Shown here piece after piece: positions 31,789-36,309 of a stretch of DNA of 64,000 nucleotides (the stretch's first letter is position 1; each line of letters opens with the position of its first letter). The stretch comes from Posidoniimonas polymericola (GTDB lineage Bacteria > Planctomycetota > Planctomycetia > Pirellulales > Lacipirellulaceae), in contig NZ_SJPO01000001.1 of NCBI RefSeq assembly GCF_007859935.1, positions 124,001 to 188,000 on the forward strand, written 5' to 3'. The notes under the pieces were generated by a model. That model was not told the DNA's origin. It searched no databases and saw nothing but the letters and a program-made list of their open reading frames with translations. The translations under genes and the position numbers were made by a program.

Positions 31789-34700
31789 ATGGGGAATCGC
31801 ACGTTTTCATTGATCGCCGCGCTGTGCGGACTCTCTGCCGCAATCCACGCGGCCAGCGCCCAGAGCTACCGTGTCGAGCGGGTGGCGTCGGGCCTGCAGC
31901 AGCCGCTGTACGTCGACCAGGCGCCGGGCGACCCCGACAACATCATCTACTACATGACCCGCGTCACCACGGGCGGGGTCAACGCCGGCAGCGGCACGCA
32001 CGGCAGCCTGTGGCGCTACGACATGGACACCCAGGCGTCGACCGAGGTGCTGAACCTCAGCCACCGCGACCTGACCCTCGACCTCGGCCCGCAGGGGCTG
32101 GCGTTCCACCCCGACTTCAACAACCCGGGGACCGACGGCTTCCAGAAGGTGTATGTCTCGTCGGCGGCGACCGGCGGGCCGGTGAACTACGTCGAGGAGT
32201 ACGAGCTCAGCGGGCCGGGCGGAACCGTGCCGACCGGCCGCGGCGGGATCCCGCTCGTGAATCGCACGCTGCTCGAATACAACAACGTGTTCGGCGACAA
32301 CAACCACGTGATCGACTGGATCGGCTTCGACCCGCGTGCGTACTCCGCGGCCCCGGGTTCGCCGGAACGCAACTACTTGTACATCTCGGCCGGCGACGGC
32401 TCGAACGGCCGCCCCGCCGACCAACGCCCGGAGCAGAAGTCGACGATCGCGCAGGGCAAGCTGCTGCGGATCGACATCGACCCCGCCAAGCCCGACTTCT
32501 ACCCGGCCGACCCCGCCAAGAACTTCGCCATCCCCGACACCAACCCGATCCCACTGTGGAACGCGGCGAACCCGGGCAACGAGCTGCTCGGCACCACGCT
32601 CAACTACACCGGCCCGACCGAGTCGGTCAGCTACTCGCCGGCGCTGCAGGAGATCTACTTCACCGGCACCCGCAACACGTTCCGGATGAGCATGGACAAG
32701 CTGACCGGCGACTTCTGGTCCGGCGACGTCGGCGAGTTCGCCCGCGAGGAGATCAACTTCCTGCCGGCCGACCCGTACGACGGCACGCAGGCGCCGTACG
32801 ACTTTGGCTTCCCGCAGCGCGAGGGGACCGGCGTGTTCGTCAACCGCTCCAACGGCGACACCAGCATCCAGTGGGACCTGGCCGGCGGCGGCGCGATCGT
32901 CCAGGACAGCATCAACCCGATCCGCGAGGGCGCCCACGCGATCATCAACTCCGGCTCGACCGCCGGCGACGTCGAGATCCGCGACCGGCCCCGCGGCGCC
33001 TACATCGGCGGCTACGTCTACCGCGGCCCAATCGAGGAGCTGCAGGGCAAGTACTTCTACGCGGACTTCACCCAGGGCAACATCTTCTCGCTCGACTTTG
33101 ATGCGACCACGCCGGTCGCCGACTTCAGCGGCGACAACTTCAACCTGGTCCCGGACGAATCGGGGACCAACGTCGCGTCGCTCGGCACGCGGGAGGTGGT
33201 GCTGAACCGCAACCTCAACTCGCTGTGGCACACGCTGATGGTCGACCCGAACGACCCGACCTACACGGCGGACCTCGGGGCCGACTTCGGCATCGGCCGC
33301 ATCGTCTCGTTCGGCGAGGACAACGACGGCAACCTCTATATCGTCGACATGGGCGGCCAACGCGGCAACTCCGGGTTCAACAACGACTACCCGGCGGGCT
33401 CCACCGGCCAGATCTTCCGCCTCGTGCCCAACCTGCTGGTCTACGCCTCGGTGGATCGCGTCACCGGCGCCATCACCTTCAGCAACGAAACAGGCGAGCC
33501 GCTCGACGTCCTCGGCTACGAGCTCTCGTCGGTCGCGGGGTCGCTCGACGACAACTTCTTGACGGGCGTCACCGGCGTCCTCGACAGCAGCGGCAACGGC
33601 GAGGTCGACGCCGCGAACGCCTGGCAGGTCACGTCGGCCCCCGGCGACAGCACGCGGTTCGCCGAGGAGTCGACCGGCACGGCGGCCACGCTGGCGATCG
33701 ACCAGGCGTTTGCGATCAGCACGCAGGACGGCTGGACCCAGTCGATCTACGAGGACGTGAAGCTCGACGTGACGCTCGGCAACGGCTCGACCATTGCCGC
33801 GTTGGTCCGCTACACGGGGAACAGCGGGTCGCCGTTCGACCGGGGCGACCTCAACTTCGACGGCGTGCTCGACGCGGCCGACTGGGTCGCGTACCGGCAG
33901 AACTTCTTCGGCGTCTTCGCGGGCGCGTCGGCCGCCGAGTCGTACGGCCTCGGCGACCTCGACGGCGACGGCGACAACGACTACGACGACTTCCTGCTGT
34001 TCAAGGCCGACTACATCGCCGCCAACGGCGCCGCGGCCTTCGAGGCCCTCGGCCAGATCCCCGAGCCGGCCGCCGCGCTGCTGCTCACGCTGGCCGCCGC
34101 CGCGGGCGCCGTGCGGACCAACCGCCGCCGGCGCAGCGGCGCCGTCGCAGCGGGCCGCCCGCGATTGGGAGCCAAGCTGGCCGTGACGCTCGTGGCGGCT
34201 ACGGCTGCGCTGGCCGCGGACGCCGCCCGGGCCGACCTGCAGCACCTCTACAGCTTCAACAACGGCCTGAACGACAGCATCGGCGGCGCCGACGGCCAGG
34301 CGTTCGGCGCCGCGGCGGTCAACGGCCAGGGGCAGCTCGACCTGCCGGGCGGGTTCGGCGACTACGTCGGCTTCGACCCGCAGGAGATCCAGATCTCCTC
34401 CTACACCGACCTCACGTTCGAGACCTGGTTCACCGTCGACACGCACCAGACCTGGGCCCGGCTGTTCGACTACGGCAGCCGCGACGTCACGCCCGAGGGC
34501 TACCTGTACTTCGCGCCACAGAGCGGCCAGGGCGGCAACCCCGCACTGGCCAGGTACGCCACGAACGACGTCCGCACCGAGATCACCTACGCGACGCCGT
34601 CCGAGGGGCAGCAGCACCACTTGGCGATGATCGTCGACGACAACGCCAACGGCGGCGCCGACCTGTTCACCGTCTACTTCGACGGCGTGTTGATCGACTC

Positions 34701-35520
34701 GGTCAGCCACAACCACCCGCTGAGCGGCGTGATCGAGACCTACGCCTTCCTCGGCAAGTCGACCTTCCCCGGCGACGTCGACCCGTACTTCAACGGCTCG
34801 ATCGACGAGTTCCGCATCTACGACCACGCGCTCTCGCAGCAGGAGGTGCTCGACAGCATCGCCGCGGGCACGACCCAGGAAAGCGCGCTCACCATCTATG
34901 TCAATACCTACACCGGCGCCATCACCATGGCCTCCGCCGAGACGCTGCCGGTCGACATCGACTACTACGCGATTAGCAGCGCGGCCGGGGCGTTGAGCAC
35001 CGCTTCCTGGAACAGCCTGCAGGACCAGGGCGGCGCGGTGGTCGGCACGGGCGAGGGCTGGGAAGAGATTGACCAGTCGAACGCGACCAAGCTGGGCGAG
35101 CTGCGGCTGCTCGGGCAGTCGTCGGTCGTCGCCGGCGCGCCGCTCGCCATCGGCGCGGCTTACGACCCGGCCGTGCTCGGCCTGGGGACCGACGGTGACC
35201 TCACCTTCGAGTACGGCCTGGCCGGCGTGTCGACCGTTGCGGGCGAGGTGGTCTACCTCGACTTCCTGCCGGGCGATTTCAATGGCGACCTCCAAGTCGA
35301 CGCCGCCGACTACACCCTCTGGCGGGACGGCCTGGCCGCCGCCGACCACACCGGCCCGGACGGCCACCCGGATGGCGTCGTCGACGCACTCGACTACCAG
35401 GTCTGGACCAGCCACTACGGCGCCTCGGCAGTCGGCGGCGCCCCAGCGGCCGTGCCCGAGCCCGCCGCGTTGGTCCTGCTGGTGAGCGTCCTCACCGCCG
35501 CGACGGTGGCCCGGCGGTAG
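31789..35520 (+). CDS. Sugar dehydrogenase-like + LamG protein with two PEP-CTERM/dockerin sets
   Basis: This 1243-residue protein looks like two secreted proteins in one frame. Part one: signal peptide (TFSLIAALCGLSAAIHAASA), a glucose/sorbosone dehydrogenase-like propeller (GPQGLAFHPDFNNPGTDG, YLYISAGDGSNGR, GYVYRGP), a dockerin-like DLNFDGVLDAADWVAYRQNF and a PEP-CTERM signal near 757-785 (QIPEPAAALLLTLAAAAGAV then basic). Part two follows at once: signal-like LGAKLAVTLVAATAALAADA (793-812), a LamG domain (LQHLYSFNNGLNDSIGGADG, TFETWFTVDTHQTWAR), GDFNGDLQVDAADYTLWRDG and a second PEP-CTERM (VPEPAALVLLVSVLTAATVA). An intergenic deletion or fusion is likely. Confidence 0.88.
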   Translation: MGNRTFSLIAALCGLSAAIHAASAQSYRVERVASGLQQPLYVDQAPGDPDNIIYYMTRVTTGGVNAGSGTHGSLWRYDMDTQASTEVLNLSHRDLTLDLGPQGLAFHPDFNNPGTDGFQKVYVSSAATGGPVNYVEEYELSGPGGTVPTGRGGIPLVNRTLLEYNNVFGDNNHVIDWIGFDPRAYSAAPGSPERNYLYISAGDGSNGRPADQRPEQKSTIAQGKLLRIDIDPAKPDFYPADPAKNFAIPDTNPIPLWNAANPGNELLGTTLNYTGPTESVSYSPALQEIYFTGTRNTFRMSMDKLTGDFWSGDVGEFAREEINFLPADPYDGTQAPYDFGFPQREGTGVFVNRSNGDTSIQWDLAGGGAIVQDSINPIREGAHAIINSGSTAGDVEIRDRPRGAYIGGYVYRGPIEELQGKYFYADFTQGNIFSLDFDATTPVADFSGDNFNLVPDESGTNVASLGTREVVLNRNLNSLWHTLMVDPNDPTYTADLGADFGIGRIVSFGEDNDGNLYIVDMGGQRGNSGFNNDYPAGSTGQIFRLVPNLLVYASVDRVTGAITFSNETGEPLDVLGYELSSVAGSLDDNFLTGVTGVLDSSGNGEVDAANAWQVTSAPGDSTRFAEESTGTAATLAIDQAFAISTQDGWTQSIYEDVKLDVTLGNGSTIAALVRYTGNSGSPFDRGDLNFDGVLDAADWVAYRQNFFGVFAGASAAESYGLGDLDGDGDNDYDDFLLFKADYIAANGAAAFEALGQIPEPAAALLLTLAAAAGAVRTNRRRRSGAVAAGRPRLGAKLAVTLVAATAALAADAARADLQHLYSFNNGLNDSIGGADGQAFGAAAVNGQGQLDLPGGFGDYVGFDPQEIQISSYTDLTFETWFTVDTHQTWARLFDYGSRDVTPEGYLYFAPQSGQGGNPALARYATNDVRTEITYATPSEGQQHHLAMIVDDNANGGADLFTVYFDGVLIDSVSHNHPLSGVIETYAFLGKSTFPGDVDPYFNGSIDEFRIYDHALSQQEVLDSIAAGTTQESALTIYVNTYTGAITMASAETLPVDIDYYAISSAAGALSTASWNSLQDQGGAVVGTGEGWEEIDQSNATKLGELRLLGQSSVVAGAPLAIGAAYDPAVLGLGTDGDLTFEYGLAGVSTVAGEVVYLDFLPGDFNGDLQVDAADYTLWRDGLAAADHTGPDGHPDGVVDALDYQVWTSHYGASAVGGAPAAVPEPAALVLLVSVLTAATVARR

Positions 35521-35595: not shown

Positions 35596-36309
35596 ATGCC
35601 GAAACACACTCTGTTGCCGCTGCTGCTCGCAGTTTGCCGTCTGACGTCCACCGCCCACGCCGCCGACGAGTACCTCGGCCGCACCATCGCCCGGACGATG
35701 CACTACACCGGTGCGCCGTGGCTGGTGCGGGACTCGCGGGAACGGGAGGAAGAGCCGGAAAAGCTGGTCGCCGCGCTCGGCCTAGAACCGGGCCAGCAGG
35801 TGTGCGACCTCGGCTGCGGCAATGGGTTCTACGCGCTGAAGATGGCCGAGAAGATCCTGCGCGGCGGGGTGGTGTGGGCGGTCGATATCCAACCGGAGAT
35901 GCTCGACCTCTTGCGCGAGCGGGCCGAGGCGCGGCAGGTGACAAACGTGAAGCCGGTCCTCGGCGACGGCGACGACCCCAAGCTGCCGGCCGGCCAGATC
36001 GACCTGCTGCTGTTGGTGGACGTCTACCACGAGATCTACGAGCCCGCAGCCATGCTGACAAAGATCCACGCGTCGCTCGCCGCGCGCGGCCGGGTGGCCC
36101 TGGTCGAGTTCCGCGCCGAAGACCCGAATGTGCCGATCAAGCCGCTGCACAAGATGACGCAGGCCCAGTGCGTCAAGGAGTTCAGGGCCAATAACTTCAA
36201 GCTGGTCGGCCAGTACGACAAGCTGCCGTGGCAGCACGTGCTGTTCTTCGCGAGGGAGGACTCGCCGCTAGACGCAGAGAAGCTGAAACCGTGGACGGCG
36301 TCGGAGTAG
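35596..36309 (+). CDS. Exported-looking class I SAM methyltransferase
   Basis: This 237-residue protein carries the SAM-binding motif I VCDLGCGNGFYALKMA, an acidic motif II (VVWAVDIQPEMLDLLRERA) and motif IV LLLLVDVYHEIYEP, so it is a Rossmann methyltransferase. Unexpectedly, it begins with a signal-peptide-like MPKHTLLPLLLAVCRLTSTA followed by HAADEYLGRTIARTMHYTGA. The N-terminal RTIAxTMHYxGAPWL segment is a feature of this planctomycete group. SAM is not expected outside the cytoplasm, so the export or the substrate supply is unexplained. It follows the GSDH/LamG gene by 75 bp. Confidence 0.85.
   Translation: MPKHTLLPLLLAVCRLTSTAHAADEYLGRTIARTMHYTGAPWLVRDSREREEEPEKLVAALGLEPGQQVCDLGCGNGFYALKMAEKILRGGVVWAVDIQPEMLDLLRERAEARQVTNVKPVLGDGDDPKLPAGQIDLLLLVDVYHEIYEPAAMLTKIHASLAARGRVALVEFRAEDPNVPIKPLHKMTQAQCVKEFRANNFKLVGQYDKLPWQHVLFFAREDSPLDAEKLKPWTASE

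Follow-up and report, generated by a model that had tools for sequence, protein, structure and literature searches.

The stretch analysed here (the window) comprises 64,000 nucleotides (nt) of Posidoniimonas polymericola DNA (contig NZ_SJPO01000001.1, positions 124,001 to 188,000), and the subject of this work is one open reading frame (ORF) at window positions 31789-35520 on the + strand. The ORF runs from an ATG at 31789, preceded by the Shine-Dalgarno (SD)-like sequence GAGAGG, to a stop at 35518-35520 and encodes 1243 amino acids (aa) with no internal stop. Two complete exported units were found in this single frame with no stop between them (Table 1). Unit 1 consists, in order, of a signal peptide, a dehydrogenase-like domain, a repeat domain (domain X), a dockerin-like domain and a PEP-CTERM sorting signal, and unit 2 of a signal peptide, a LamG domain, a second copy of domain X, a dockerin-like domain and a terminal PEP-CTERM. 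At the joint between the units, IPEPAAALLLTLAAAAGAV begins at residue 757 (34057), continues into RTNRRRR and is followed by the second signal peptide. The G+C content at third codon positions was 0.90-0.99 in every stretch of the ORF and 0.92 within the joint, and since it stays high throughout, the joint was deduced to be read in the frame of the ORF.

A preliminary description made from the letters alone had placed a PEP-CTERM with a basic tail in mid-protein, followed by a signal-like helix and a LamG domain, and these assignments were confirmed. TIGR02595 matched two stretches of the whole protein with 24.3 bits (cut-off 16), the better one being internal. When the halves were scored separately, unit 1 reached 15.9 bits, just below the cut-off, and the second half 14.9 bits (residues 430-451 of the fragment P0002), while the Pfam PEP-CTERM family gave 20.2 bits, slightly below its cut-off of 20.7. 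The internal PEP-CTERM lies 486 residues before the stop, and only the second copy sits at the end of the protein. Signal peptides were recognised from their hydrophobicity, charge and A-x-A motif rather than with a trained predictor. In an AlphaFold model of residues 546-1046 (mean predicted local distance difference test score 76, lower in the hairpin), two helices at 760-782 and 793-809 were predicted with a loop between them.

The remaining domains were assigned with varying confidence. Unit 2 had also been credited with a dockerin and a PEP-CTERM of its own; the PEP-CTERM stood, while the dockerin was reduced to "dockerin-like", as PF00404, the type I dockerin family, gave 19.1 bits for the whole protein (two stretches), below its cut-off of 22.9. 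PF07995 scored 25.4 bits on unit 1 alone and 23.6 bits on the whole protein (cut-off 25) and matched only 42 residues; a search of solved structures (PDB) with unit 1 gave no match. With the model, the top of the Foldseek matches listed consisted of lectin-type folds only, for the LamG part. Copy 1 of domain X had no Pfam or NCBIfam match, and the domain carries no Pfam name; it precedes each dockerin-like domain and is present in many proteins of the Lacipirellulaceae. A further signal-peptide-bearing ORF (35596-36309), which we take to be methyltransferase-like, begins 75 nt past the stop.

Table 1. Features of the two-unit ORF, in window positions
Feature	Residues	Position	Strand	Basis
First signal peptide, MGNRTFSLIAALCGLSAAIHAASA	1-24	31789..31860	+	Sequence, judged by eye; 29% identical to G001 orthologue
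Glucose/sorbosone-dehydrogenase-like domain	25-550	31861..33438	+	PF07995; 83% identical in G001
Repeat domain X, copy 1	551-675	33439..33813	+	Predicted beta strands
Dockerin-like domain 1	686-739	33844..34005	+	PF00404, weak (12.1 bits); helices in predicted model
Internal PEP-CTERM (motif, transmembrane helix, basic patch)	757-782	34057..34134	+	TIGR02595, best stretch
Positive loop of hairpin, presumably cytosolic	776-798	34114..34182	+	Charge; predicted model
Internal (second) signal peptide, predicted cut after ARA	793-815	34165..34233	+	Hydrophobic core plus AxA
LamG (concanavalin-like)	857-1020	34357..34848	+	PF13385, 67.5 bits (cut-off 27.6), 1.8e-18
Repeat domain X, copy 2	1031-1158	34879..35262	+	Limits drawn by eye
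Dockerin-like domain 2	1161-1204	35269..35400	+	PF00404
Terminal PEP-CTERM	1222-1243	35452..35517	+	Sequence; TIGR02595 on second half

Fused relatives and split counterparts

Homologues were sought in 39 genomes. A genome of the same genus (G001) was found to contain two fused relatives, the orthologue L009 (69% identity) and the paralogue L161 (48%), both aligning over the whole length. A scan of named organisms gave 10 loci and no fused orthologue of the window's gene among them. The PEP motif, the arginines and the A-x-A motif are common to the three joints, with A813 and A815 present in both relatives, and the residues between them vary. Between the window's protein and L009, identity was 38% in the hairpin, 29% in the first signal peptide and 41% in the terminal PEP-CTERM, compared to 52-83% in the domains. 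The hairpin thus diverges like the terminal signals and unlike the domains, its features being retained and its letters not. An objection raised in advance, that relatives might carry both halves as one continuous conserved domain set, fails because the fused relatives retain the PEP-CTERM/signal-peptide hairpin.

The preliminary description had proposed either two adjacent secreted genes that became fused or a polyprotein cut by sorting enzymes, and had suggested looking for separate genes in relatives. Such genes were found. In three genomes of one other genus (G055, G015 and G022), the unit-1 homologue terminates with a PEP-CTERM followed by a stop (L172, L186 and L149), and 102-105 nt past that stop an ATG opens a signal-peptide-bearing homologue of unit 2. 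The identities to the window are modest (34-36% for unit 1 and 27-30% for unit 2), so these pairs are regarded as homologues and not as close orthologues. The proposed fusion is borne out by these neighbouring but separate genes, which form one gene in the window's genus. An unfused dehydrogenase unit was also observed in G007 and G019 (L010 and L011). Other ORFs in G019 are fused (L169, L174, L176 and L199).

Recurrence of the joint

A simple internal-PEP pattern gave false matches in unrelated and antisense frames (in a sampled 1.2 Mb, 9 "main" ORFs had an internal match, and 2 of these were real joints) and was therefore replaced by a profile, A1, built from 14 joints. A1, which keeps the pattern GD...D......D...F of dockerin-like domain 1, was run over the organism's own genome and 43 genomes of its family and gave matches in all 43. 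Sixty regions were fetched roughly by rank, together with further loci from both profile runs and sampled contigs of the own genome. After de-duplication, 265 matches reached the PEP columns, of which 89 were internal (the frame runs on for more than 100 aa), 169 terminal and 7 intermediate, a fused share that is inflated in the fetched sample because A1 was trained on fused joints. The intermediate matches were set aside, six being apparently cut by a locus or contig end and one being long-tailed.

The PEP motif was exact at 88/89 internal and 166/169 terminal sites; as A1 itself favours PEP, retention is biased upward in both groups alike. Outside the training rows of the profile, PEP was exact in 74/75 internal sites. 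A second uncharged hydrophobic core was found downstream of 88/89 internal sites, compared to 192/1122 random stretches of the same ORFs, the sole site lacking it being L216 (position 411). These 88 joints belong to 67 ORFs, 46 with one joint and 21 with two. They come from 19 genomes, which represent 10 of the 14 genera covered by the family run of the profile, numbers that are lower bounds since only part of the matches was fetched. Among the 21 ORFs with two joints, 19 have lengths of 1278-1507 aa and look like a single three-unit family; the remaining two are shorter or truncated by the end of the locus.

Fused and split sites could be paired as homologues in 31 cases, covering 23/88 fused and 11/169 split sites. 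On a tree of 122 unit-1 segments (64 fused), 12 fused/split changes were required compared to 40.8 after shuffling, at least 4 of them on well-supported branches. The fused state was therefore deduced to be inherited and to have arisen or been lost several times. The arrangement is beyond chance, being kept in another genome of the genus and in a paralogue and recurrent in the family.

These data bear on the view that a sequencing error or gene decay removed a stop and left a non-functional internal PEP-CTERM. This view could draw on Haft 2006 (PMC1569441), where, in the text available, long-tailed PEP-CTERMs were thought perhaps non-functional. It is scarcely credible given that another genome has this joint in two proteins of 69% and 48% identity, and given the 88 joints in 19 genomes and the inherited state on the tree. 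A sequencing error hiding a stop, foreseen in the preliminary description, is ruled out by the same joint in independent genomes; decay of the internal PEP-CTERMs is unsupported, PEP being retained in 88/89, and codon reassignment is not needed for a joint that contains no stop.

In the own genome, 64 ORFs of an unselected 1.2 Mb end in a PEP-CTERM. Following the profile matches gave 11 ORFs with 13 internal joints, including two ORFs with two joints and three exported units each, C6 (L276:5617-10182, 1522 aa) and C13 (L277:3167-7996, 1610 aa). The window's contig carries one more fused two-unit ORF (L083; C1:854439-857702), and a separate PEP-CTERM gene follows it after 62 nt, so this cluster mixes fused and split joints. 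In C15 (L284:3267-5930; also L126), another of these 11 ORFs, what follows the PEP-CTERM unit in frame is not a Sec signal but a type IV prepilin-like leader, RRRRPTARRVGFTLVELLVV; pairs of this kind are found as two genes in L125, L127 and L151. If the C15 joint, of which there is one example only, is real, the second cut would fall to a prepilin peptidase.

A wider scan covered 294 genomes of the phylum. Outside the family, stop-free joints were sporadic among the matches listed, occurring in G134 (L230), G298 (L231) and G216 (two rows; L248). A short joint-only profile, A4, which misses long loops including that of the window's joint, gave PEP-CTERM-like matches in 91/294 genomes, with no more than 23 candidates scored per genome; among the matches listed, a joint crossed without a stop was seen in the own genome, G134 and G216 only.

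Conserved signals and proposed processing

Beyond PEP, two further properties of the joints were found to be conserved. An AxA motif follows the second core in 64/88 joints, compared to 36.8 +/- 4.0 after shuffling (maximum 48 in 1000 rounds), and the excess persisted without the training rows (55/74; shuffled 30.6, maximum 44). The loop between the two cores carries a net charge of +2 to +8 in 88/88 joints. Fused joints are also compact, with a median of 30 aa from PEP to the second core compared to 65 aa if the spacers of split pairs are read through (p ~1e-28). At half that length, they are not mere lost stops and were deduced to have shortened to the point where both signals share a single arginine patch.

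Signal peptidase I cleaves after A-x-A at the outer face of the membrane. The genome also encodes three exosortases over the PF09721 cut-off, and the exosortase/archaeosortase signature TIGR04178 is present in 3/3. On these signals, we propose, with a probability of roughly 0.7, that the ORF encodes a polyprotein made by read-through, in which exosortase cuts at PEP and signal peptidase after AxA to separate the units, the hairpin between them being discarded. The in-frame tandem of two exported units would be translated as a single chain, with the N-terminal signal directing unit 1 through Sec. The helix of the internal PEP-CTERM would then stop in the membrane, leaving the arginine patch in the cytosol, where it would double as the n-region for the next signal peptide, the one that would carry unit 2 across. 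A positive loop on the inside would orient the internal signal correctly for this export. Cleavage at PEP by exosortase and after AxA by signal peptidase I would yield two separately sorted surface proteins, both presumably used by the cell, with a short two-helix hairpin remaining in the membrane. The polyprotein option of the preliminary description is supported by PEP, positive loop and AxA across the 88 joints and by the 31 of them that lack a start codon for unit 2, the cuts themselves being predicted.

The same signals were considered under two schemes with fewer cuts. If signal peptidase alone cuts, as it does in some precursors, unit 2 would be freed and unit 1 anchored by the leftover two-helix hairpin. 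The well-retained AxA sites agree with this scheme, for which an N-in orientation, expected from the positive loop, would suffice. We consider it unlikely because PEP is retained as well internally (88/89) as at C-termini, although an unused motif should drift, and because the split homologues finish in a normal PEP-CTERM. If the joint is not cut at all, the product would be a two-lobed surface protein on a permanent membrane hairpin, a picture suggested by the two predicted helices and the compactness of the fused joints. This is distinctly improbable, as a permanent anchor requires neither PEP nor AxA, both of which are conserved, and as homologues exist as two genes.

A third alternative is that unit 2 arises mainly from initiation of translation within the ORF, which would make the open frame over the joint incidental. 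An ATG occurs within the loop in 28/88 joints, some with an SD-like sequence, and the window's joint contains TTG and GTG codons. This alternative was judged very unlikely because 31/88 joints have no ATG, GTG or TTG between the cores and so offer none from which unit 2 could be translated independently, and 60/88 have no ATG, while split neighbours begin with ATG in 88/99 cases (the scan preferred ATG). Furthermore, TTG is the sole start codon in the joint of the G001 orthologue, and the joint of the fused paralogue has none. Loops without a start codon are also shorter than those with an ATG (median 8 compared to 13 aa, p 0.004).

Several points nevertheless weigh against the doubly cleaved polyprotein. 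Both cuts are deduced from conserved signals at predicted sites, and exosortase would have to accept a substrate whose tail runs into a second transmembrane segment. The fused share of the survey is inflated by its 14 fused training joints, and the tandem PEP-CTERM pairs in the unselected 1.2 Mb of the own genome were 14 split and 2 fused (2/16). SD-like sequences precede 12/33 in-loop ATGs in other joints compared to 107/1282 other loop codons; this enrichment fits former start codons, and some may still work. The window's joint itself has an in-frame TTG (34165) and GTG (34183), the GTG lying behind a GGGAG, so internal initiation is possible for the window's gene taken alone.

Relation to known systems and significance

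Precursors of two proteins with an internal signal are known elsewhere. Bradyrhizobium japonicum FbcH (cytochrome b/c1) is a bacterial two-protein precursor whose internal signal sequence is cut by signal peptidase. FbcH is the precursor of one complex and has no upstream sorting motif, whereas each of the present units is equipped with an export signal and a sorting tail of its own, in an arrangement found again in diverse units and in sets of three. In viral polyproteins, such as the flavivirus structural proteins, internal transmembrane and signal hairpins are cut by host signal peptidase; those systems are viral and eukaryotic, whereas the present one belongs to bacteria, and the opposite side of its hairpin is proposed to be cut by a dedicated sorting protease.

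The PEP-CTERM/exosortase system, as described in the available text of Haft 2006 (PMC1569441), shares with the window's gene the PEP motif, transmembrane helix, basic patch, N-terminal signal peptide and genomic exosortase. It differs in that the first tag of the window's protein lies within the chain, with a basic patch that leads directly into a further signal peptide. According to the same text, 87% of PEP-CTERM tails have fewer than 10 extra residues, and the very few long-tailed ones were guessed to be possibly non-functional, a published view against which the present sequence data argue. Tripartite sorting tags end in a basic cluster (PMC3237569), and LPXTG/sortase, GlyGly-CTERM/rhombosortase (PMC3237569) and MYXO-CTERM/myxosortase (PMC11980579) likewise combine a motif, a helix and a basic end with a cut by the sorting enzyme. 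In the available portions of these papers, such tags are described as C-terminal, and tandem use was not seen there. Among the titles and abstract openings listed from the open-licence literature, no description of PEP-CTERM/signal-peptide joints or of PEP-CTERM polyproteins was found.

To our knowledge, bacterial polyproteins are rare. It is reasonably likely that the family possesses two- and three-unit polyproteins whose hairpin boundaries are excised by exosortase and signal peptidase, making the intervening stop and start dispensable and fixing the stoichiometry of the surface proteins. If so, internal PEP-CTERM tags would be functional rather than decayed, exosortase could cut in the interior of a chain, and the joints would be natural substrates for testing exosortase cutting. 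Gene callers and secretome counts in the family would also be merging separate proteins. The occurrence of such genes in many related planctomycetes suggests polyproteins cut apart by sorting enzymes, and a whole bacterial family appears to own a general joint for making them.

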